Part shown: in pieces, positions 39,487 to 52,729 of the stretch
How positions within the stretch are numbered: the first letter of the stretch is position 1
Layout: each line of letters begins with the position of its first letter
Assembly: GCF_026151205.1 (NCBI RefSeq)
Contig: NC_087084.1
Coordinates: 4,333,538-4,397,537 of the forward strand
Source of the DNA: Bolinopsis microptera
Taxonomy: Eukaryota > Ctenophora > Tentaculata > Lobata > Bolinopsidae
DNA length: 64,000 nucleotides
Direction of reading: 5' to 3'
The notes under the pieces: model-generated
Databases searched by the model: none
What the model was told of the DNA's origin: nothing
What the model saw: the letters and a program-made list of their open reading frames with translations, nothing else
Translations under genes and position numbers: made by a program

Positions 39487-39708
39487 CGTGAAGTAGATGT
39501 CAAGTAGATTTCAAGTAGATTTCAAGTAGCGGTGAAGTAGATTTCAAGTAGCGGTGAAGTAGATTTCAAGTAGCGGTGAAGTAGATGTCAAGTAGATGTG
39601 AAGTAGATGTCAAGTAGATGTCAAGTAGATGTCAAGTAGATGTGAAGTAGATTTCAAGTAGCGGTGAAGTAGATGTCAAGTAGATGTGAAGTAGCGGTGA
39701 AGTAGAGG
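39487..39708. repeat. 12-bp minisatellite (AAGTAGATGTCA type)
   Basis: Tandem units of GTCAAGTAGAT, GTGAAGTAGAT, TTCAAGTAGAT and GGTGAAGTAGC for about 220 bp. No coding value. Confidence 0.92.
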
Positions 39709-39814
39709 TCCACTGTGCTCTGTGGTGAAGACTAATATTTAAAACGTGTAATATGACACGTGGGCGTAGTAATTATTATGCATGTTCATTGTTCAGGTGG
39801 TTTTGTAGAGGAAT

Positions 39815-40876
39815 CAGATGGTCCTGAATACGAACATAGCAGAGTAACGGCCCTGTGAGGGAGTGAGATGGTCCTGAATACGAACATTGCAGAGTAACGG
39901 CCCTGTGAAGGAGTGAGATGGTCCTGAATACGAACATTGCAGAGTAACGGCCCTGTGAAGGAGTGAGATGGTCCTGAATACGAACATTGCAGAGTAACGG
40001 CCCTGTGAAGGAGTGAGATGGTCCTGAATACGAACATTGCAGAGTAACGGCCCTGTGAGGGAGTGAGATGGTCCTGAATACGAACATTGCAGAGTAACGG
40101 CCCTGTGAAGGAGTGAGATGGTCCTGAATACGAACATTGCAGAGTAACGGCCATGTGAAAGAGTGAGATGGTCCTGAATACGAACATAGCAGAGTAACGG
40201 CCATGTGAAGGAGTGAGATGGTCCTGAATACGAACATTGCAGAGTAACGGCCCTGTGAAGGAGTGAGATGGTCCTGAATACGAACATTGCAGAGTAACGG
40301 CCCTGTGAAGGAGTGAGATGGTCCTGAATACGAACATTGCAGAGTAACGGCCCTGTGAAGGAGTGAGATGGTCCTGAATACGAACATTGCAGAGTAACGG
40401 CCCTGTGAGGGAGTGAGATGGTCCTGAATACGAACATTGCAGAGTAACGGCCATGTGAAGGAGTGAGATGGTCCTGAATACGAACATTGCAGAGTAACGG
40501 CCATGTGAGGGAGTGAGATGGTCCTGAATACGAACATTGCAGAGTAACGGCCCTGTGAAGGAGTGAGATGGTCCTGAATACGAACATTGCAGAGTAACGG
40601 CCCTGTGAGGGAGTGAGATGGTCCTGAATACGAACATTGCAGAGTAACGGCCCTGTGAAGGAGTGAGATGGTCCTGAATACGAACATTGCAGAGTAACGG
40701 CCCTGTGAAGGAGTGAGATGGTCCTGAATACGAACATTGCAGAGTAACGGCCCTGTGAAGGAGTGAGATGGTCCTGAATACGAACATTGCAGAGTAACGG
40801 CCCTGTGAGGGAGTGAGATGGTCCTGAATACGAACATTGCAGAGTAACGGCCCTGTGAAGGAGTGAGATGGTCCTT
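39815..40876. repeat. 50-bp satellite, about 21 copies
   Basis: Perfect 50-bp period; units contain GATGGTCCTGAATACGAACA and AGAGTAACGGCCCTGTGAAG with few variants (CCATG for CCCTG, ATAGC for ATTGC, GAGG for GAAG). All three minus-strand frames are open for over 330 codons because no unit contains a minus-strand stop and 50 is not a multiple of 3. A further block of four units lies at 47948-48147, on the other side of LINE 3. Confidence 0.97.
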
Positions 40877-41238: not shown

Positions 41239-44200
41239 TTAAGGTAAATTGTCAGAGGATGTTATATGGTCGTTTAGAACTGTCCAGAGGTACTTAATTA
41301 AATGGGTTTTAAACACGGATGGCCTTGAGATTTCCCTTAATTCATAAGGGAGTTTATTCCAAAGAATGTGTGCTCTGTAAAAGTAAGACTTAGATATGCC
41401 TGAACATCTGGTCTGGCTTGACGTAAGGTTTTGTGGAACTTGAGGAGAAATGTCACTAATCATACTGAGATCGTCTAGATGTGATCGCCTTAACCTACTT
41501 CCCATGAAACGTCGTAAGTAAGGTGGAAATGTCACAACTGACATGTCATAAAAAATATTATGAAAATATAATATATCCTTGTAATCAAACCTTACCGAGA
41601 GTGGAAGGATATTTAGTTCCTTACACGCTATGAAATACCTTTTTTTGTCCCTAAGGCTCAAGTAAATATCATTAAGGATCCACTTGATACCTCTTTTTTG
41701 TATCGATTCAAGTTTCTCCACCGAGGTTTCTGAATGAGGCCGCCAGACAATTGTGCAGTGTTCGAAATGACTTCTAACCTGAGATAGATAGAAGGCCCGA
41801 CGTTTTTTAGTGTTCTTGGTGAAGTAACATGTTCTTTTTAGAAGGCCTAACCTCTGACTAGCCTTAGAGTATATCATATCACAGTGATGTGACCAATCTA
41901 ACTTACTATTGATATGTACTCCAAGATCTTTTTCAATGTCTGTGTATTCGATAGCCGTTTCATTCATTGAGTACACAAAATTAACACTACGATTCATAGA
42001 ATATGCTCGGGTAATAGAAAGAACGTGACTTTTTGAAGGGTGAAACACCATCTTATTATGATGAGCCCAATTTTGAAGACTGTTAATATCCCGCTGGAGC
42101 AGCCAATGGTCATCCTGGGACGTGATTCTACGCCATATTTTTGTATCATCAGCATACATGGTTATATTTGTTTCCGGTGACAAATCCTCTGTAATGTCAT
42201 TAAGAAAAAGTATAAATAAAGTAGGCCCTAAAATTGAGCCCTGGGGGACACCTGATCTAACCTGACAGGGAGCAGACATTTTATTTCCAATGACAACCCT
42301 TTGGTATCTGTTTTCAAGGTAGCACTTGAAGAATCTCAGTAGAGATGCATCAATGTTATATTGTTCTTTGAGCTTCAACAGAATTATGTCGTGGTTGACA
42401 GAATCAAAAGCTTTTTGGAAATCAAAGTATATTATGTCAGTGCGAACATTGTCATTGAGAGATAGGGCTAAGCTGTCACAGAAATTTACTAGCTGAGTTG
42501 TACATGATTTCCTACTCATAAAACCATGTTGACGTTGATCAATAAGATGTTCACATCGATTGAGCAATTCATCCCGGATTACTTTTTCGTAAACTTTCAT
42601 AATAATGCTTGTCAGAGAAATTGGCCTATAGTTGTTAACTTCAATTTTAGAGCCTTTTTTATGAACTGGAACAACGTTTGCCATTTTCCAATCTGCTGGA
42701 ATACATCCAGTTTTATAAGAAGCTTCAAAAAGGATAGCAAGAGGCTTAGACAGGCTCACTGAACAGTACTTTAAAATTCTTCCATGGATATTGTCGGCCC
42801 CTTGCGCTTTACTTGGATCAATATTTTCAAGTAAACCTTTGATTTTACAAGTGTCGAAATTGACCTGAAAATCACGGTCACTGGAAAAGTCGATATCTAT
42901 ATCATAATCACTACCCTCTGTAAACTGTTCGTTAAAATATTTATTGAATAACTCACACTGTCCTTGCGGATCGGACCGTAGGCAACCATTGTAGCTGACT
43001 GTTTCAGGAATGCGATTAGAGTTTGATTTAGATTTCACAAAAGACCAGAACTTTTTGTTAATGAGATTTCTGTTATCATCATCTTCAAAGTTTGCGTCCA
43101 ATTTTGCATCAACGAGATTTTTAAAATCCCTCCTAGCTTTGGAAAATTTTAAATATTTTTTTGGATTAGAAGACTGTTTCCATTCGTCATGTAGTCGCTC
43201 CTTTTTTCTACATAAATCAAAGACATCTGAGTCAAACCATGGGGGTTGAAATTCATCGGAGACAGATATCTTAGGAATATGTGAATTACAACGAGAAGTG
43301 AAAATAGTATTGAAAACTGACCAGGCCTCTTCGACTGGTTTACCACTAAGTAGATGTTCCCAGTTTTCAGAATTCAGTGCATTATTTAAATTGGTCCAAT
43401 TGGCCCTTTTGAAGCTATAGATTTTTCGTTTGGTAGACTTTTTCTTTCTAGCGTTAAGTCTTATGTCAAATCTTATCGCATAGTGATCCGACCCACAAAT
43501 ACCATGTTTACTGTCAACAATTAATTCTGATATAATTTCTGGCTTATCCGTCAAAACTACATCTAGAACATTTCCCCTGTAATGTGTAGGGTCTGTTACC
43601 AGCTGCTGTAAAGATAAATCATTAAACGTATCAATGAATGCTTGTTCAATAGGAACAGAGGAGGAGCCCTCATCCCATCTGACCTGGGGCATATTCAAAT
43701 CACCAACCAAGGTAATGCTCTGTACTCTTCTACGCCTACGGATGTTATGTAGGTATTGCTTGACTCTATCATGGTTATCATTGCCAAGTGTGCCAACTCT
43801 GTAGAACGAGCTTAATATGGATTTTCTTCCTAACTTGTCAGAAAGCTCAATACTCAAAATCTCGGCTCTACATTTGACAGGAATGATTTTAGATTCTATG
43901 TCAAGACAATGTTTTATGGCAATAAGGACACCACCCCCATTTACTCTGAATTTCCGACTATTCTGGGGGTCCGGGGGATGAGTAAAGCTAGAACGGTCAA
44001 GTCTAAATACTTTGTAATCAGCTGTCGAGATGATTTCACTATCATGGATATTGTCCTTTAACCATGTTTCATTATAAACTACAATATCTGGTTTATTGAT
44101 ATAAATAAAATGGTTTAGTTCGTGAATTTTTGTAGAGTGGAGAGTGGGATTTGCATCTCCAAGTTCACCAAAAGGGATCAAGCCCTGAACGTTACAATAA

Positions 44201-44829
44201 AAAACTGAGCAGTTTCCCGGGGGTCCTGGATTTTTCATGCTAGGGTTACAAATAAAGATAAGGAGAAAGTTTATGAGTAGTATCCAAAGGTAAAGTGATG
44301 CAGTTATATTTTGTAGATATGGGATTAAGCCTCGTTTGGAATTGTATTTAACAAAGAACGTATGTAGTGTTTTACCTCTAATAGATAAGCTACTCATTGT
44401 ACGTCTAATTGCAATACCAAAGATAACAAGGTAGAAATTGCAAAGTAAATTACCAAGACTGTTAATATTTAGTAGGAGTGGAGATTTAATAAGCTGTATC
44501 AGTTTAGCAGGGTTTGTAGGTGGGTTTTCCAAAATACAGGTGGTAAAACAGAGTAACATAACAAGGACGAAATAATAGTACATAAAAGCAAGACATATGT
44601 GATGTGGTTTGAATGAGTTTTGAACGGGTGTGGAGTGTATTACTGAATTCTTTGTTCTCTTCTTGTTTGAGTGGCTATTATTAAAGTAGCCAATACGTTT
44701 TCTATATGTTTCTAACTCAATCATGTGAAATCTAACAATAAAACGACCAACTGTGGAGCAATAATTCCCTTTACGGTGTGTAATTTGTACTTGTATTATT
44801 GTCCGTGTCCAGTTTGTTTGCGTGATCAA
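41239..44829 (-). CDS. LINE 3 ORF2: hydrophobic leader, 2A-like NPGP, endonuclease, reverse transcriptase
   Basis: Continuous 1196-codon frame without stops. Residues 78-98, about 118-140 and 177-194 are strongly hydrophobic; NPGP at 200-203 follows the last one. Endonuclease 207-455: CNVQG (N213), YNETW (E254), VGDLN (D377, N379), SDHY (447-450). RT about 680-960: VPVHKKG, NNYRPISL, YFDFQKAFD (D803), GVPQGSILGP, YADD (892-895). The C-terminal 240 residues hold the usual thumb region and no RNase H. All catalytic residues are present, so this copy may be active or very recently so. The NPGP core recalls 2A peptides known at the N-terminus of some LINE proteins, but the preceding D-x-E positions are not conserved here. 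Confidence 0.9.
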   Translation of the reverse strand: MITQTNWTRTIIQVQITHRKGNYCSTVGRFIVRFHMIELETYRKRIGYFNNSHSNKKRTKNSVIHSTPVQNSFKPHHICLAFMYYYFVLVMLLCFTTCILENPPTNPAKLIQLIKSPLLLNINSLGNLLCNFYLVIFGIAIRRTMSSLSIRGKTLHTFFVKYNSKRGLIPYLQNITASLYLWILLINFLLIFICNPSMKNPGPPGNCSVFYCNVQGLIPFGELGDANPTLHSTKIHELNHFIYINKPDIVVYNETWLKDNIHDSEIISTADYKVFRLDRSSFTHPPDPQNSRKFRVNGGGVLIAIKHCLDIESKIIPVKCRAEILSIELSDKLGRKSILSSFYRVGTLGNDNHDRVKQYLHNIRRRRRVQSITLVGDLNMPQVRWDEGSSSVPIEQAFIDTFNDLSLQQLVTDPTHYRGNVLDVVLTDKPEIISELIVDSKHGICGSDHYAIRFDIRLNARKKKSTKRKIYSFKRANWTNLNNALNSENWEHLLSGKPVEEAWSVFNTIFTSRCNSHIPKISVSDEFQPPWFDSDVFDLCRKKERLHDEWKQSSNPKKYLKFSKARRDFKNLVDAKLDANFEDDDNRNLINKKFWSFVKSKSNSNRIPETVSYNGCLRSDPQGQCELFNKYFNEQFTEGSDYDIDIDFSSDRDFQVNFDTCKIKGLLENIDPSKAQGADNIHGRILKYCSVSLSKPLAILFEASYKTGCIPADWKMANVVPVHKKGSKIEVNNYRPISLTSIIMKVYEKVIRDELLNRCEHLIDQRQHGFMSRKSCTTQLVNFCDSLALSLNDNVRTDIIYFDFQKAFDSVNHDIILLKLKEQYNIDASLLRFFKCYLENRYQRVVIGNKMSAPCQVRSGVPQGSILGPTLFILFLNDITEDLSPETNITMYADDTKIWRRITSQDDHWLLQRDINSLQNWAHHNKMVFHPSKSHVLSITRAYSMNRSVNFVYSMNETAIEYTDIEKDLGVHINSKLDWSHHCDMIYSKASQRLGLLKRTCYFTKNTKKRRAFYLSQVRSHFEHCTIVWRPHSETSVEKLESIQKRGIKWILNDIYLSLRDKKRYFIACKELNILPLSVRFDYKDILYFHNIFYDMSVVTFPPYLRRFMGSRLRRSHLDDLSMISDISPQVPQNLTSSQTRCSGISKSYFYRAHILWNKLPYELREISRPSVFKTHLIKYLWTVLNDHITSSDNLP

Positions 44830-45241
44830 CGCCCGTCCGTGATTAGTTATACTATCATAATCAGTTATGTGATGTAATCACGTAACTGTAGAATTCATTT
44901 TCATCTATTTAAATTGAGAAAATAAGCAATATTCTGAGAAACGGAGATAACTCGTCTTAGATTAGATAAGATGTGATCAGCCAATCAGCTCATTCGAAGA
45001 GTGATGGACATAGATGCTGGACTAATATTGAGGCTCATGATGAATTAAAATTATACGTGATATTATTTAGGTATAACTTAGGCTGAAATTTGTTCGAATT
45101 TAGTTTACAGGTTATTATGGTGGATTTATAAGGTGACCATTTCCGCAGTTTGTTCTGTCAGCTACATGCTTGTTTAGTCGGTCTTGTTCTGTTCTTGAGT
45201 GAAATTGTTAAGTAGTGCAGCAATTCTATCATAAAGATTAA

Positions 45242-46828
45242 TCACTTAACACGAAAAGAAAACTGACATAATAAATTTCTATACTGGCGCCGCAGGGGCA
45301 GATATCCTCTCTTTAGTCCTAGAGAAAGTAGAATGCAGTGAACCCAACACTCAGATAGCACGGATTGACCAGACAAATTAAAGTGAAGGCCATCTCGTGC
45401 CAGGTGTGAGGTGCCAAATTTCAAGTTATCAAACAGTTTGAAGTTAGAAGTATGAACTGAAAGTTCGAACAATGTCATGTTCAGCTGGTCGATAGATTTG
45501 TTCATGTTGTTGAATCTGTCGGCGCTCATGTTGAGAGGTGAAATTGAATCAAAAATGAACTTAGTGTTTTTATATTGATTCACTGAGCGTTCAACAAAGT
45601 TGTGTAGAGTCGAGGGGTGAACGCGGTGTTTTCTGAGGTCGTTGATGCCCGCAGAGAGGAGAACAACATCAGCCTGCTCAATGGATCTGCAGTGCTGGTG
45701 TAGATCCCGCAGATGAAAGAGATCCTCTCTGAAGGCAACAACTGGCTCATGCAATGTGGAACAATCAAACGACTTATTCTTCGAATCTGAAAGAATCAAC
45801 ACCCTTTTAGGCCGAGCATGACTAGAATTACCCCTCTGGTATGGTGCTGATGCATGGCGAAGGACCCTGCAGGTAATGCTAATTCTAGTGCCAGAGAAAT
45901 CTTGTTCCTTGACCCGGGGTACACTGTGGTCAAACACATCCTGGCTAGCCCGAGTCATCGTGTACATTGACCCATGTTCTGGGGTCAGGGAGAACCGCTT
46001 ATAGCTACCAGGTGGTTTTATTCTGAACACTACGGGGCGAGGGGCACCCAGCGTGATGGTTAGAATGGTGCTTTCTGGGTCTATTGATGGCTCGTTATCA
46101 CTGTGTGGCGGGATGTGTGAGATATGGTTATCATATTTGGTCACGAGGAAACTGTTGAACGGTTTGGCCTGGTCAGGGAATAGGGAGTTCAAATGATCAA
46201 CAATATTCGCCAGATAAGTGTTGGTGCTGATTTCACGTGCCACATGGCGGCCTCCAGCATACTCATAAGGCATGTTCCCATAGTGGGCAACTTTCCTATT
46301 TCCAAAATTGCGGTCATATGTTGTGTTGTTGTCCAAATGCGCAGCTTGAAACTGTTTAAATAAATTTTCTGCATAAAGTGTATAAGGCATGATACCTTCA
46401 GGCTCCAGGTTACTAGTACTGCGAGTTGTTGAGGATGGTGTAGGTAGGATGGCAGGAGTCGGCAGGAGGGGGACGTCACGGGCTGCAGGAGCTGCTGGCT
46501 GTTGTAGGTCTTTAACGAGCGTCTGGGCACGGACTACGTTCTCCTTCAGCTGCTCCAGTTGTTTGTTTGCTTCCGACACGTGCCTCGCAAAATTAGAGGT
46601 TAATTTGTTGAGATCGTGTGTTAAGTCGGTGCTGTCTTCTATGACTACTTGTTTAAAATGTTCAGTAAGCGAGTTACTTTTACGTATTTTGCCTCGAGCT
46701 TTGATGAACTTCTCATTACAAGTTCTTTCGAGTTCAAGTGTCATTTGATCTTCCGAGAGCTGATCAACAAGGTCAAGGCAGAGTTGTGGGCAAAACAAGA
46801 AAATGAAAATTAATGTAATAAGATACAT
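45242..46828 (-). CDS. LINE 3 ORF1: AlkB-type 2OG-Fe(II) dioxygenase fused to SGNH esterase
   Basis: 528-residue frame. Residues about 14-110 are helical and charged (coiled-coil-like), 111-145 Pro/Ala-rich. About 147-325 is AlkB-like: HYGNMPYEY lid-type motif (182-190), YDN (232-234), PHSD with iron ligands H242 and D244, distal ligand H301 in DHSVPR, and RISITCR (R315, R321) matching the AlkB 2-oxoglutarate-binding signature. About 340-500 is SGNH: LSDSKNKS (S349), SAGIND (392-397), DGLH (D479, H482). AlkB enzymes remove alkyl groups from nucleic acids; in a LINE the likely substrate is element RNA or cDNA (inference). The first 13 residues (to about 46790) come from a rearranged flank, not from the true N-terminus, which lies in the copy at 47684-47845. 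Confidence 0.85.
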   Translation of the reverse strand: MYLITLIFIFLFCPQLCLDLVDQLSEDQMTLELERTCNEKFIKARGKIRKSNSLTEHFKQVVIEDSTDLTHDLNKLTSNFARHVSEANKQLEQLKENVVRAQTLVKDLQQPAAPAARDVPLLPTPAILPTPSSTTRSTSNLEPEGIMPYTLYAENLFKQFQAAHLDNNTTYDRNFGNRKVAHYGNMPYEYAGGRHVAREISTNTYLANIVDHLNSLFPDQAKPFNSFLVTKYDNHISHIPPHSDNEPSIDPESTILTITLGAPRPVVFRIKPPGSYKRFSLTPEHGSMYTMTRASQDVFDHSVPRVKEQDFSGTRISITCRVLRHASAPYQRGNSSHARPKRVLILSDSKNKSFDCSTLHEPVVAFREDLFHLRDLHQHCRSIEQADVVLLSAGINDLRKHRVHPSTLHNFVERSVNQYKNTKFIFDSISPLNMSADRFNNMNKSIDQLNMTLFELSVHTSNFKLFDNLKFGTSHLARDGLHFNLSGQSVLSECWVHCILLSLGLKRGYLPLRRQYRNLLCQFSFRVK

Positions 46829-47224
46829 TTGATTATGGCACAGTCAATCTGTCTCAGTTACTAACCATACCAAGAAGACGATGAGCCGGCCAAAATGATA
46901 AATGTTCAGACCAAACGGACGAAATAATCAAACATCTAGAGATCTAGATTCTAGAGCTCATGAATTCTAATGAGAGCAGTAGGGGTGTCAGTCAGCTGAT
47001 AATAGAACTATTTTATGATATCATTCCCATATGAGGAGGTAATAATGGGTAATTATATCACACCGGGATCAATAAGTCTTATATCTGACAATGTCTTGTC
47101 CTTTGTTCATATTGAAATGAAGCAGTCCCGTGTTATAAATAGAGGTATTATACTGAGTACCGGTATCTTGGCCATCATTAAATCTTTTCGAAGTACGGAA
47201 ATTTGTAAGAGAATGGAATCTAAT

Positions 47225-47845
47225 TTATTTTGTACCCAGTGGAGATTTAAAAAATAAATTTTCTGCATAAAGTGTATAAGGCATGATACCTTCAGGCTCC
47301 AGGTTACTAGTACTGCGAGTTGTTGAGGATGGTGTAGGTAGGATGGCAGGAGTCGGCAGGAGGGGGACGTCACGGGCTGCAGGAGCTGCTGGCTGTTGTA
47401 GGTCTTTAACGAGCGTCTGGGCACGGACTACGTTCTCCTTCAGCTGCTCCAGTTGTTTGTTTGCTTCCGACACGTGCCTCGCAAAATTAGAGGTTAATTT
47501 GTTGAGATCGTGTGTTAAGTCGGTGCTGTCTTCTATGACTACTTGTTTAAAATGTTCAGTAAGCGAGTTACTTTTACGTATTTTGCCTCGAGCTTTGATG
47601 AACTTCTCATTACAAGTTCTTTCGAGTTCAAGTGTCATTTGATCTTCCGAGAGCTGATCAACAAGGTCAAGGCAGAGTTGTGGACTAAATGACTTCATGG
47701 TAGTTTGAGTGCCCCTATCTACCGTACCTGTGTAAAGGGGGTCTGCCAGGTAGCCCTTAGAGTCTGCGGTAGCGGTGGGCGTGCCGCTACCTGGCAGCCC
47801 GAGAGTCCGTTGAGAAGAAGTTGGAGTGTTTGTAGTGGTATCCAT
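47225..47845 (-). pseudogene. LINE 3 ORF1 N-terminal half, separated by duplication
   Basis: Starts at 47845 and supplies a 52-residue Thr/Ser/Gly-rich N-terminus absent from the main ORF1, then repeats its helical and Pro-rich region up to ENLF before running into unrelated sequence (stop at 47225). Where they overlap the two copies appear identical. It shows what the native ORF1 start looked like. It lacks the AlkB and SGNH domains. Confidence 0.8.
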
Positions 47846-47947
47846 GGTCAGTCAGCAAGGAATAATTCGCGTCGCACAGTCGGTCTTCTTATCAGTTTTA
47901 ATCCATTAGCGAATTTAAACAAACGTATTTAAAAATTGCAAATGAGT

Positions 47948-48147
47948 ATCCTGAATACGAACATTGCAGAGTAACGGCCCTGTGAGGGAGTGAGATGGTC
48001 CTGAATACGAACATTGCAGAGTAACGGCCCTGTGAAGGAGTGAGATGGTCCTGAATACGAACATTGCAGAGTAACGGCCCTGTGAAGGAGTGAGATGGTC
48101 CTGAATACGAACATTGCAGAGTAACGGCCCTGTGAAGGAGTGAGATG
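47948..48147. repeat. 50-bp satellite, 4 copies, 5' side of LINE 3
   Basis: Four units identical in sequence and orientation to those at 39815-40876. The array starts at TCCTGAATACG directly after the LINE 5' leader and ends at GAGTGAGATGAG. Confidence 0.95.
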
Positions 48148-48879
48148 AGTGAACTAATGAATTGTGCTATTAGTGACTTGACAAATGTGGAGTTAACCAC
48201 TGTTAGGATGATTGCAAGTAAGGTAGCGGTGTTATATTATACCTGTCCCCTATAATAATGATATACTGCAGCTAGTTATTATGTTAATTATAAATTCAGC
48301 TGTCATAATGTGAGTTATGATTTGCCAGTTTGCCACTGTGAGGAGGCTGGTATTGAGCAATTCTCACTGGCCAATGTGTGTATGTGCTCCTTCAGCAAGA
48401 TGATTGTTGAGGGCAAAACAAGAAAATGAAAATTAATGTAATAAGATACATTTGATTATGGCACAGTCAATCTGTCTCAGTTACTAACCATACCAAGAAG
48501 ACGATGAGCCGGCCAAAATGATAAATGTTCAGACCAAACGGACGAAATAATCAAACATCTAGAGATCTAGATTCTAGAGCTGATGAATTCTAATGAGAGC
48601 AGTAGGGGTGTCAGTCAGCTGATAATAGAACTATTTTATGATATCATTCCCATATGAGGAGGTAATAATGGGTAATTATATCACACCGGGATCAATAAGT
48701 CTTATATCTGACAATGTCTTGTCCTTTGTTCATATTGAAATGAAGCAGTCCCGTGTTATAAATAGAGGTATTATACTGAGTACCGGTATCTTGGCCATCA
48801 TTAAATCTTTTCGAAATACGGAAATTTGTAAGAGAATGGAATCTAATTTATTTTGTACCCAGTGGAGATTTAAAAAACA

Positions 48880-50150
48880 AAAACTTTAAAATTGCTATAA
48901 TATTATACATATGAAACGGAATCAAGTCAGTCCGCTATTGCCTTATCAAAATGAAATGCAAATTGTAAAAGCAAAAAGATTTACACTGGCGCTGCATCGA
49001 TCCCTCACACTGCACCTTTACAATTCAGCTCATTACATTAATTTCAGCATGAACCTTATATATCTAATCTACACTTGGGGTCTATCATCCACAATACCGT
49101 ACCACCATGAAGCATTCCTTCCTTATACGCGATGGTATTTTAACACGAGTTTTTAATCAACTTTTAGTAAGTCAGCGTTTTGACAGCGATAATATGTTTT
49201 ACCATTATATTTGTACCTGCAGAATTTCTACGTTGTCTTGGAGCACCTCTGGTTCGGGTTCTGGTGGTATTCGCAGGCCTGGTGGCTACTTCCTTCGTCT
49301 CCATGCCTTTGAGTTGGCGATTTGTATTAATTGTGTATGATCTGACCTTCGAGGTTAATCCAAAAGTTAGAAATATCTTATTAATCTCCATGGAGATCGT
49401 TGATTATTCAAGAGCTTCATGCATTTATTTAAATCGAATCAACCCTACTTGATTCAGATCAAAATATATTAATTATGGAAATTCAACACTATAAATGAAG
49501 AGGAAACTAGATCATCAAGACAATCTAGATCTCCTATCTACGATTATACCACATCTTAAGTCTAAAACAAGCGATAGCACATTCCACGCTTAATAACCTA
49601 AACCAAACAACCACGCTCGGGAAAGATAACCCAAGCGGGAAAGAAGTGATGATCATCTTTACAGAAGAGAAGAAAAATAGGCCAAATAAGCTAATCGACA
49701 GCTGCGCTCAGAACATAAACGATATGATCTGAATTAAAAGATGTCAACATTAACCCTGACAATGTGTATGTAATCGGCAATTTGAGCACCGCGTGCTAGG
49801 AACAGCCCGCCAGTATCCTGTCTGGACACTGGTCACGTGACCAATCAGCCCACGTGGCCAATCAGCCGGATTTAAACATGTGTAGTTCTACTGGACAAGT
49901 GCTTGGTTATTTAGGAGTAAACACGTGTGGAAGGAGTGAGGTCAATTAGCAGAAGGGAGGGTTAATGGAGTCATGATCACACCAGGAGTAGGATAATTCA
50001 TCTTCCTACAGGGTGGCAAGGAGGAGTAACAACTGTGAGCACTCGGCAAGGAGGAGTAACAACTGTGAGCACCTTAGGTTCATTTTAGCCAACTTTACGT
50101 CAGGGCGTACGTGTTTCCCTTCTCTTTGATATGATATCGTGCTGTTTAAC
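48880..50150. other. Interval without supported gene
   Basis: A GC-richer block at 49217-49335 preceded by a good acceptor (TTGTACCTGCAG) might be an exon, but no frame in it matches a family I know. A 30-bp unit (GGCAAGGAGGAGTAACAACT plus GTGAGCACT) is present twice at 50014-50075. Confidence 0.35.
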
Positions 50151-50154
50151 TGGA

Positions 50155-50465
50155 ATTAGGTCTAACCGAGCACTGATCTAGAGTCGGCTAAAAACCGGTC
50201 TGTAGCCGCCTAAGAGTCGGTCGAGATCAGCCGAACTATAGCCACCTAAGAGTCAGTCTAGAGCCGAGCTATAGTCGGCTAAGAACCGGTCGAGAGCCGA
50301 ACTATAGCCACCTAAGAGTCAGTCTAGAGCCGAACTATAGTCGGCTAAGAACCGATCTATAGTCGGCTAAGAACCGGTCTAGAGTCGACTAAGAGCCGAT
50401 CTATAGATTCGGCTAAAAGAGCCGGGTTATGACCGATTTACACCGACTAAGAGTTGGCAGTGAAT
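50155..50465. repeat. Degenerate 33-bp repeat (AGTCGGCTAAGAACCGGTC type)
   Basis: About nine diverged units with alternating TATAGTCGGCTAAGAACCGG and TATAGCCACCTAAGAGTCAG forms. CCGGTC/GAGCCG motifs make it locally self-complementary. Sequence from 50465 to 51160 shows no feature. Confidence 0.75.
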
Positions 50466-51439
50466 ATATTATTCAAACCAGCTGCTTACCATCTTTAAAA
50501 ACAGCTCATGTATATTATATATGTATGTAGTAAGCTAATCCTTTTTAAGAAACAACTCTTAGAAGTGCCGGAGTCATGTGAACACCACGCGTGTTATGTG
50601 AACACGTGGTATCAGGATTATAAAGGAGTTGACTAAACTTAATTGTAGAGAAGTAGGACGACCCAATCTTACAAACGGTTAGGAAAACTAAAAACACAAC
50701 AAGTCGGAAGAAATAAATGTAAAATTAATATTTTCACTGGATAAGCTGAACCATCCCGGAAGTTAAGTGAAATTAATGACGGAATGATAAGAAGACACGT
50801 ATATTATATAACGAGAGTAAAACTAAGAGAGTAAAATTAACGTGATGCATGTAACTGTGTGGGGAGCAGGGTAGAAGGAGGTGGTGAGGTTTGTTTAACC
50901 CGGCCCCTGCTACCTGGATAGTAATCTAATTCTACTTACGATAGACACGTATTAAATTCCACTGATCTAACCATCTCAAACCGTTATAAAACTACCTAAT
51001 AGACCGATATTTAATGTTAGTATTACGTTACTAGTGTATTTTGTGTTAGAAAATAGACAGTGCATTTATGTTGATGTTATGTATTGTGAGTTACGTGATA
51101 TGAGTAGTTTCTGTTGAGTGGTATGACGAATGCGGTAAATAATTTGATAATAATGGCTCTTTTAAAGCCCCCTCCCGGGTTGCAACATTGCCATGTTACG
51201 CAAATAATTGCCGCGCTAACGAAATATTTGCCATCTTAGCAAAATATGCGCCGTGTTATGATGTATTTGCCAGGCTGCGCGTGATGATGCAAATATTTCA
51301 TAAGGAGGCGAATTTTACGTTAGGAAAATGCGCATTCTTAGCAAAATATTTGCCAAACGGTCAGACGCGCGCTGCACGCTCCTTTTTAGTTTGTTTACGC
51401 GAGAATGAAATCTTCGCATTCTTAGCAAAATATTCGCCT

Positions 51440-51700
51440 CCTTATAATTTATTTGCGCGAGAGTTAAATCTACGCTTTCTTAGCAAAATATTCGCCACCT
51501 TATAATTTATTTGCGCGAGAGTTAAATCTACGCTTTCTTAGCAAAATATTCGCCACCTTATAATTTATTTGCGGGAGAGTTAAATCTACGCTTTCTAAGC
51601 ATAATATTTGCCGCCTTATAATTTATTTGCGGGATCAGAGTCAAATCTAGCTACGCTTTCTTAGAAAAATCTTTGCCACCTTATATTTTACATAACTTCA
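51440..51700. repeat. 58-bp tandem repeat in left arm (mirrored at 58255-58515)
   Basis: Four units of CTTATAATTTATTTGCGCGA followed by GAGTTAAATCTACGCTTTCT at 58-bp spacing, the last diverged. AGCAAAATATTYGCC motifs recur through the whole arm. A 105-codon frame crosses it in both arms, but it reads the repeat and matches nothing known. Confidence 0.85.
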
Positions 51701-52729
51701 TTTGTGATAGGAATTAGGATCATATGCTGCTTACGACTCTGCAGTGGATCACATACTGTAGGTATACGTGGATTGAACTGACCCGAAGGAATTATGATCA
51801 GTGGATCGAAATACATAACGTGACCGACGAATCGCGTCCACAAGATCACTTCGAAATAAGTAACGTGAACCGGCCTGACGAATCACTTGATGAGTTTATG
51901 ATCCAAAAGAAGGATAGAATCTGACCTGAACTTGGAAATAAGATAGGATATTGTGTCGCACTGAATATAATAGAGTACGCTACCTGGATTGTAGTGCGAC
52001 ACATACTGTAGTCAGTGTAGTGCGAAAGATTACTTTTATAGTGTTAGCAGTTAAAATTCTAAACTTCATCCCGTTTCAAATATCAAACCACAGTACGAAT
52101 TATTGCACTAATGCCGGTTATAATGAGGTCTAAAACACACGCTCAAAGTTAAAGTGTGTTTATATTTACCAATTAAACTTTAGTTGATGTTAACTTGTTA
52201 ATTATAACTGTGTACGAGTACGACTACCTACCTACCTAACAGTAACCGCTTCGATTTGTTTAACAAAACATCATTTTCCGAACTAGAGTGCGGTACCTAT
52301 GACTTAGACTTTACTCCGCTAGAAACAACAAAATTTAAACAATTGGACAGTAGCGAATCTACCTAGCGAACTTTAGTGTTAGAACTTAGCGGTGACCGAC
52401 AACTAGGAACCTCTCATTCCGGCCTCCCACAGCTAGGTATCACATGACATGGCCCAATCAGTGACGTATCATTTGTGATGTGATCCATATTATTCACATG
52501 ACAGTTTAGTAAGTAGTTGTGTCTGAGAAGTGTTTGAGCTCTCGGCATGTGTTCACATAACGGACGTGAGCCAGGTCCAAAAGGGGCTGGTTCTCGTATC
52601 CAAGGATGTGAGCCGAGCATGCACTGAAGCGGAAAGCTGCTGAACAGCCCAAGGCAGTAGAGCCAAGGCGTCCGGATCTGCACAGCACTCTGAAGCGAAG
52701 ACCTCAGAAGAATTCCTCCTTCCTTCTAC

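Follow-up and report, generated by a model that had tools for sequence, protein, structure and literature searches.

AlkB-type dioxygenase domains joined to putative SGNH esterases in LINE ORF1 proteins of Bolinopsis microptera

Within a 64,000-nt stretch of the Bolinopsis microptera genome (GCF_026151205.1, contig NC_087084.1, 4,333,538–4,397,537, forward strand), hereafter the window, we identified a long interspersed nuclear element (LINE) on the minus strand whose first open reading frame (ORF1) encodes a predicted AlkB-type dioxygenase followed by an SGNH esterase-like part. Judged by their sequences, AlkB-bearing ORF1s accompany five reverse transcriptase (RT) lineages. We put at about even the chance that the ORF1 protein (ORF1p) unites AlkB dioxygenase and SGNH esterase and that the AlkB domain clears 1-methyladenosine (m1A) and 3-methylcytidine (m3C) from the packaged RNA for the RT. 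A broader proposal, which we hold at slightly under even odds, is that AlkB plus SGNH forms a swappable ORF1 module of many LINE lineages, traded among unrelated polymerase proteins (pols) and passed between LINEs and Helitrons, with one dealkylase protecting single-stranded intermediates.

The window ORF1 combines AlkB and SGNH domains

The two domains and their candidate active-site residues map as follows.

45866..46306, minus strand: AlkB 2-oxoglutarate (2OG)-Fe(II) dioxygenase domain, residues 180–326 (PF13532, E 9.1e-16)
46105–46097 (H247/D249), 45928–45926 (H306), 45886–45884 (R320) and 45868–45866 (R326), minus strand: AlkB residues
45344..45811, minus strand: SGNH (GDSL-like) esterase domain, residues ~345–500, with S354, G399/N401 and D484/H487

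The nearest entries in the PDB found by phmmer with the window ORF1 were human ALKBH3 (E 7.6e-9) and ALKBH2 (8.5e-7), others being weaker, and a profile derived from five ORF1 subfamilies returned the same two proteins at 2.1e-17 and 6.1e-15, respectively. An AlphaFold2 (AF2) model, built on aligned AlkBs from prokaryotes and viral contigs, likewise matched ALKBH2/ALKBH3 best, with ALKBH6, E. coli AlkB, ALKBH5 and FTO further down, in agreement with the structural likeness to AlkB/ALKBH proteins anticipated by an earlier note on this DNA made from its letters alone. The transposon AlkBs also display the motif HxD...H...RxxxxxR (PMC544882). On the modelled structure, the ORF1 domain has an AlkB fold. 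The residues singled out by the earlier note are present, its H242, D244, H301 and R315 becoming H247, D249, H306 and R320 once numbering begins at the stop. A chance motif was ruled out by the Pfam, PDB and fold matches together with the conservation across divergent copies. For two further loci (numbered L001 onward), L010 and L015, the Pfam search did not report PF13532, though the AlkB domain of L010 is identical to that of the window; we take this as an effect of the HMMER filters, because our own profile, run with filters off, finds both.

For the SGNH part of the window ORF1, Pfam yielded PF00657 and PF13472 with E-values of 0.0017 and 0.002, under the Pfam cut-offs, and the matches stayed sub-threshold in all six aligned relatives (window 4.3e-4, best 1.2e-6). 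In the same six, the named Ser, Gly/Asn, Asp and His residues are invariant; the assignment of catalytic roles among them we presume from SGNH enzymes. A single-sequence AF2 prediction of this part had a predicted local distance difference test (pLDDT) score of 39, no SGNH chain was found in the PDB by sequence profile, and viral contigs gave no SGNH match. The earlier note's reading of both domains in one LINE ORF1 is supported, with the SGNH part matching weakly. The N-terminal region, which showed weak matches only, to coil-like families, is probably a coiled coil.

The catalytic residues are retained across divergent copies

We compared 51 transposon AlkB rows, in which the window copy is counted twice (the second time as L009), L018 and L020 are one place, and L023 is excluded as too partial. 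All 51 rows have HxD, and every one of the 49 that extend far enough has the distal His and both Arg. This retention of the metal and 2OG ligands across deeply divergent copies speaks against the idea that the AlkB fold is an RNA-binding scaffold with secondary or lost catalysis, as binding alone would not need them. Esterase ORF1s lack known RNA-binding domains, and the scaffold would replace this missing part; overall we regard such a role as quite improbable.

Two positions beyond the first Arg, all 49 transposon AlkBs that extend this far have Ser, whereas Asn occupies this RxN position in all three cellular ALKBH2/3-like proteins and in 83 of the 88 AlkBs from prokaryotes or viral contigs (distal His kept in 87 of the 88). 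Most transposon AlkBs are also without the Gly-Trp before the iron His and have mostly P-x-H instead of G-W-H, a comparison in which the sampling is non-neutral at those columns, as the 88 sequences were fetched by short peptide patterns with P/G and P/W before the His. The Ser-for-Asn change that marks the transposon AlkBs, along with the other substrates of some AlkB family members, would be compatible with a different target, e.g. a host protein or host tRNA. As the best matches are nucleic-acid dealkylases, we consider such a target very unlikely.

Nonsynonymous (dN) and synonymous (dS) rates were estimated by the Nei–Gojobori count, with dS beyond saturation in most by-domain pairs. The pair L010/L015 showed an overall dS of 2.28 and dN of 0.36, with dN of 0.27 for AlkB, 0.46 for the N-terminal part and 0.34 for SGNH; the corresponding dN values were 0.28, 0.52 and 0.34 for L029/L150, and 0.23 (AlkB) and 0.44 (SGNH) for L007/L055. 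Thus, the AlkB dN (0.23–0.28) lay below that of SGNH (0.34–0.44) in three of three pairs and below that of the N-terminal part (0.46–0.52) in two of two. With the catalytic residues kept, these pairs agree with the constraint on the domain that the earlier note had named as a check. The dN/dS ratio was 0.24 for L153/L154 and ranged from 0.08 to 1.21 for close-copy pairs, which hold very few changes and of which one was undefined.

AlkB ORF1s are dispersed in the genome and adjoin LINE pols

A PF13532 scan of the 264.65-Mb genome, with scores for 150 of its 587 candidates and further matches beyond those listed, yielded at least 151 matches, all above the curated cut-off and 150 of the 151 free of stops; genomic spread was assessed in this one animal genome. 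L001–L003 were taken for cellular ALKBH genes because of their position in the AlkB sequence tree, and L002 and L003 also because their frames hold no other Pfam domain. Searching with the window ORF1 (81 of 801 candidates scored) retrieved at least 82 places, in identity groups of ~95–100, 59, 54, 49, 46, 43, 40 and 30%. A pol of one of the families described here was found directly downstream on the same strand in 31 of the 35 loci L004–L038 (within the flank examined; L009 is the window copy, and L018 and L020 are one place), the remaining loci being L005 (Helitron-type), L016, L031 and L035. Most of these homologues sit next to LINE pols, and the iron ligands are kept, contrary to the condition under which the earlier note would have given up its reading. 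A one-off capture of a host gene was ruled out by the at least 151 listed places in several families.

The ORF1s that accompany the 47–51% pol relatives of the window element were expected to lack AlkB, being missing from the AlkB match table, a view overturned by a divergent AlkB (E 4.7e-27) in the ORF1 of L158. This very divergent domain (C4:14127600-14128600) belongs to the sister lineage of the window pol and falls outside the listed Pfam matches. Because the Pfam match table rests on 150 scored candidates out of 587, absence from it is no proof that AlkB is lacking, and the total of AlkB ORF1s is probably higher. Many further SGNH frames in the genome (426, 455, 485, 502, 513 and 521–523 aa) could represent additional ORF1s of the esterase type.

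Five RT lineages and Helitrons carry the domain

The first RT lineage downstream of AlkB ORF1s is the window type. The second combines a PHD/C1 zinc finger, an endonuclease (EN) and an RT in ~1200 aa (L040–L044, L046, L146; Pfam testing for the finger covered the members other than L040 and L146), with L045 of this lineage holding finger and EN only. The third is without this finger (L054, L055, L145), and the fourth comprises L056 and L147–L149, where a PHD-like finger is located in the ORF1s of L147–L149. The RT tree, which has 15 rows, sets three groups and the window RT apart. A fifth, far lineage is formed by L153 and L157, in whose ORF1 AlkB is followed by a coil-like part and then an SGNH-like part; the pol of this lineage, outside the RT-tree sample, matched our own RT profile at E 4.6e-32, below the matches of the other pols. 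SGNH was detected by Pfam, mostly under the cut-offs, in the first three groups as well as L056 and L148, and as motifs identified by eye in L147, L149 and L157; for L147 and L149 the Pfam search reported neither PF13472 nor PF00657.

In L147 (4723-6600), L148 (114-2450) and L149 (178-2424), a single protein holds a PHD-like finger together with AlkB and an SGNH-like part, potentially a combination of reader plus eraser.

Helitrons move through single-stranded DNA and have no RNA intermediate. The Helitron-type L053 (1-8946) is a single 2982-codon frame with AlkB, Helitron_like_N (4.7e-22) and a PIF1 helicase (9.6e-22), and in its relative L005 (223-3402), whose AlkB is 93% identical, an SGNH match (4.2e-7) precedes AlkB. 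Among the matches listed, six AlkBs lie in frames of more than 2000 codons. Compared by eye, three of these (C9:15868177, C3:14441692, C12:2469580) have an SGNH match ~1 kb before AlkB with an equal frame length, and C9:11092850 has one close by; for C10:16875843 (the L053 copy) and C12:8338315 no SGNH is listed nearby among these matches. The presence of AlkB in DNA elements is a point for the alternative that the domain acts on DNA, repairing m1A/m3C or removing host marks in the single-stranded target or cDNA, as is the listing of ALKBH2, the top structural match, as a DNA repair protein. ORF1 proteins are, however, thought to package RNA (PMC3905857), and action on DNA appears to us improbable.

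The window family looks chimeric through ORF1 exchange

An AlkB tree was calculated from 47 domains, including 24 prokaryotic or viral-contig rows picked from the 88. Sixteen LINE and two Helitron AlkBs split from all the other domains on a branch with 100/99 support (bootstrap not fully settled), and without L158 the 15 LINE and two Helitron AlkBs did so with 99/99. The main transposon group is separate from cellular AlkBs, and the tree did not place it as orthologous to ALKBH2 or ALKBH3. The exception is the L153/L157 AlkB, which fell among non-transposon AlkBs; a common transposon group including it was not rejected by the approximately unbiased (AU) test (p 0.265). Helitron AlkBs were nested among the LINE ones (88/85), and a LINE-only group was likewise not rejected (AU p 0.11).

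The window AlkB pairs as sister with the AlkB of L015, an ORF1 upstream of pol L040 (100/88, 64–65% identity), and the window ORF1 is 58–59% identical to the ORF1 of LINEs whose RT shares no more than 35% identity. None of the other RTs in the 15-row tree exceeds 35% identity to the window RT. Conversely, 19 places carry a pol 47–51% identical to the window pol across most of its length. At 13 of the 19 an SGNH match was seen by eye directly upstream, and L158, the sole readable ORF1 among them, has an AlkB 25% identical to the window AlkB. With pol relatives bearing a distant ORF1 and ORF1 relatives bearing a distant pol, an ORF1 swap in the window family is strongly suggested, and from these sequences the family looks chimeric through exchange between RT lineages. 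Holding the window RT with L040 and L041 gave an AU p of 0.040, and with the whole group of PHD-finger pols 0.276; holding the AlkBs of L040–L044 without the window AlkB gave 0.048, and those of L040 and L041 without it 0.097. These groups were named after the trees had been seen, and the sister pol (the 47–51% relatives) is outside the tree. AU support for the chimera is accordingly modest, and the identity contrast is the stronger sequence argument.

A proposed role in clearing the RNA template

By analogy with other ORF1ps, the protein would coat the element RNA in a ribonucleoprotein, where the SGNH part may bind or cut lipids, as has been shown for the zebrafish esterase ORF1. From the packaged RNA, the AlkB part would oxidatively strip methyl groups that sit on the Watson–Crick face of A and C (m1A, m3C), and the cleared template would let the element RT copy through, either ahead of target-primed reverse transcription or while it proceeds. 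For Helitrons, equivalent chemistry would protect single-stranded DNA. According to the authors of OTTR (ordered two-template relay), m1A and similar modifications hinder the R2 (LINE-type) RT used there, and treatment with AlkB, which takes off m1A and m3C, increases the capture of most 3' tRNA halves (PMC12140624). We favor template clearing because the nearest folds are m1A/m3C removers, m1A hinders the R2 RT and AlkB treatment improves this capture. The occurrence of the domain in Helitrons and in RNA-virus polyproteins also counts in its favor.

Several points weigh against template clearing. The AlkB activity is predicted from sequence and fold, and the likeness of the AF2 model to AlkB is partly built in, because its input alignment consisted of AlkBs. 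The Ser-for-Asn change and the loss of Gly-Trp imply that substrate choice may differ from ALKBH2/3. In the OTTR work the effect of AlkB on the capture of intact tRNA was modest (PMC12140624). Template clearing also presumes LINE RNA with enough m1A/m3C in vivo, and the window copy's own ORF1 is broken by an internal duplication.

The main rival is that AlkB erases N6-methyladenosine (m6A), or another mark, to hide the element RNA from host surveillance or raise its stability, a role already proposed for the AlkB of orchid Ty3/Gypsy elements. The orchid Gypsy AlkB demethylates m6A on single-stranded RNA in vitro (PMC9289625), and ALKBH5 and FTO have a fold in common with our model. The best structure and sequence matches are nevertheless ALKBH2/3, not ALKBH5/FTO, and L1 retrotransposition is aided by the writer METTL3 and suppressed by the eraser ALKBH5 (PMC7873242). 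We therefore judge m6A erasure unlikely.

The window copy and its insertion site

The element and its surroundings comprise the following features.

47948–40876, minus strand: whole LINE insertion, ~7.07 kb including the internal duplication; both ends abut a 50-bp satellite
47949..47952, no strand: target-site duplication (TSD), 5' side (TCCT), by sequence reading
40872..40875, no strand: TSD, 3' side (TCCT), by sequence reading
47949..48147, no strand: 50-bp satellite, 4 copies, 5'-side flank (Tandem Repeats Finder, TRF)
39809..40875, no strand: 50-bp satellite, 21.3 copies, 3'-side flank (TRF)
47225..47851, minus strand: native 5' part of ORF1, N-terminal region; 208-codon frame, start codon near 47845
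46783..47258, minus strand: flanking-DNA copy interrupting ORF1, 476 bp, 99% identical to 48406–48881
46358..46789, minus strand: duplicated ORF1 segment, 432 bp, 100% identical to 47252–47683
46843..45242, minus strand: ORF1 remainder frame, 533 codons stop to stop (ORF reading, Pfam)
44877..41239, minus strand: ORF2 (pol) frame, 1212 codons (ORF reading, Pfam)
43474..43788, minus strand: apurinic/apyrimidinic endonuclease (APE)-type EN match, pol residues 364–468 (PF14529, Exo_endo_phos_2, 1.6e-10)
41995..42663, minus strand: RT match, pol residues 739–961 (PF00078, RVT_1, 4.4e-29)

With EN and RT in one pol frame, a TSD, dispersed copies and an ORF1 upstream, the element is an APE-type LINE. 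The junctions read ...GATGG TCCT / element / TCCT GAATACG..., which places the 4-bp TSD inside a satellite unit. The 5' alignment ends of five dispersed copies (L010–L013, L023) correspond to window positions 47942–47949, within 8 bp, while L018/L020 stops at 47920 on the 5' side and L014 is shorter. The 3' terminus, read in the window copy only, is ...ATTGATAAAA.

The frame 47851–47225 shares its N terminus with the 571-aa ORF1 of L010–L013, four copies elsewhere in which this frame is single and unbroken and which are 98–99% identical to the window ORF1 from residue 16 onward. The first 15–18 codons of the 533-codon frame (46843 to ~46790) are non-native and lie within duplicated flanking DNA; so does 46828, where the earlier note had begun the gene. 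No counterpart of the interrupting piece 46783–47258 was matched in L010–L014. The rearranged stretch might also be an assembly error. The plus strand across 45242–46843 holds many stops. ORF1 does precede EN-RT in the same orientation, as that note described, and both lie on the minus strand; the note's spacing of 412 bp, which depends on the start codon, was not reproduced; the ORF1 stop lies 364 bp from the opening of the pol frame.

Two hydrophobic stretches were seen in the pol N terminus (residues ~92–117 and ~188–220; window 44218–44604, minus strand), the second followed, just before the endonuclease, by NPSMKNPGP, a degenerate 2A-like motif missing the canonical D-x-E. 2A sequences occur in LINE pols; NPGP is confined to the window family among the frames of at least 250 aa examined. 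Tandem arrays lie nearby at 39488–39710 (11/22/44-bp units) and 50203–50416 (22/33/66-bp units), and a 793-bp inverted pair (51164–51956 / 58790–57999, 99.6% identity) is probably a separate repeat family. No tRNAs were found in the 64-kb window.

Significance and comparison with known systems

The known main role of LINE ORF1 proteins is that of RNA coats, and a conserved nucleic-acid-modifying enzyme there would be a second function. It would point to template chemistry as a limit on reverse transcription in vivo that is strong enough for selection, and would open the part played by m1A/m3C (or m6A) in retrotransposition to direct tests; a shared module, if real, would be the built-in counterpart of AlkB treatment in RNA sequencing. 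Animal LINEs and Helitrons would join plant RNA viruses and the orchid long terminal repeat (LTR) element as AlkB-carrying mobile elements, and the window family would also exemplify how RT lineages exchange their ORF1s.

We found no AlkB described in a LINE ORF1 or Helitron in the open-access literature, subscription journals and Repbase being mostly outside this coverage, and an unnoticed database entry is possible. This agrees with the earlier note's placing of AlkB outside the standard LINE ORF1 architectures. Neither 'AlkB' nor 'dioxygenase' occurs in the main text of a 2014 ORF1 survey (PMC4120745), and in 2013 esterase ORF1s were called unique among ORF1ps in having enzymatic function (PMC3905857).

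The closest architecture is the esterase-type (type IV) ORF1 of zebrafish ZfL2-1, which shares the C-terminal SGNH-type domain and the EN-RT downstream (PMC3905857; PMC4120745), whereas here an additional AlkB precedes the SGNH part. Phalaenopsis Ty3/Gypsy elements are likewise retrotransposons with a conserved AlkB domain, but these are LTR elements with a separate extra ORF of ALKBH5-like type (PMC9289625), in contrast to the LINE ORF1s described here, which are nearest in structure to ALKBH2/3, fused to SGNH and spread over several lineages. Plant RNA virus replicases (PMC544882) and other RNA-virus polyproteins are nucleic-acid parasites with a built-in AlkB as well, although as polyproteins without RT; among the 50 BFVD matches listed, identity to the transposon AlkB is 17–30% and E-values reach down to 4.2e-13. 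Human ALKBH2 and ALKBH3 remain the best fold and sequence matches, from which the main transposon group differs in having RxS instead of RxN and, in most members, P-x-H where G-W-H would stand.
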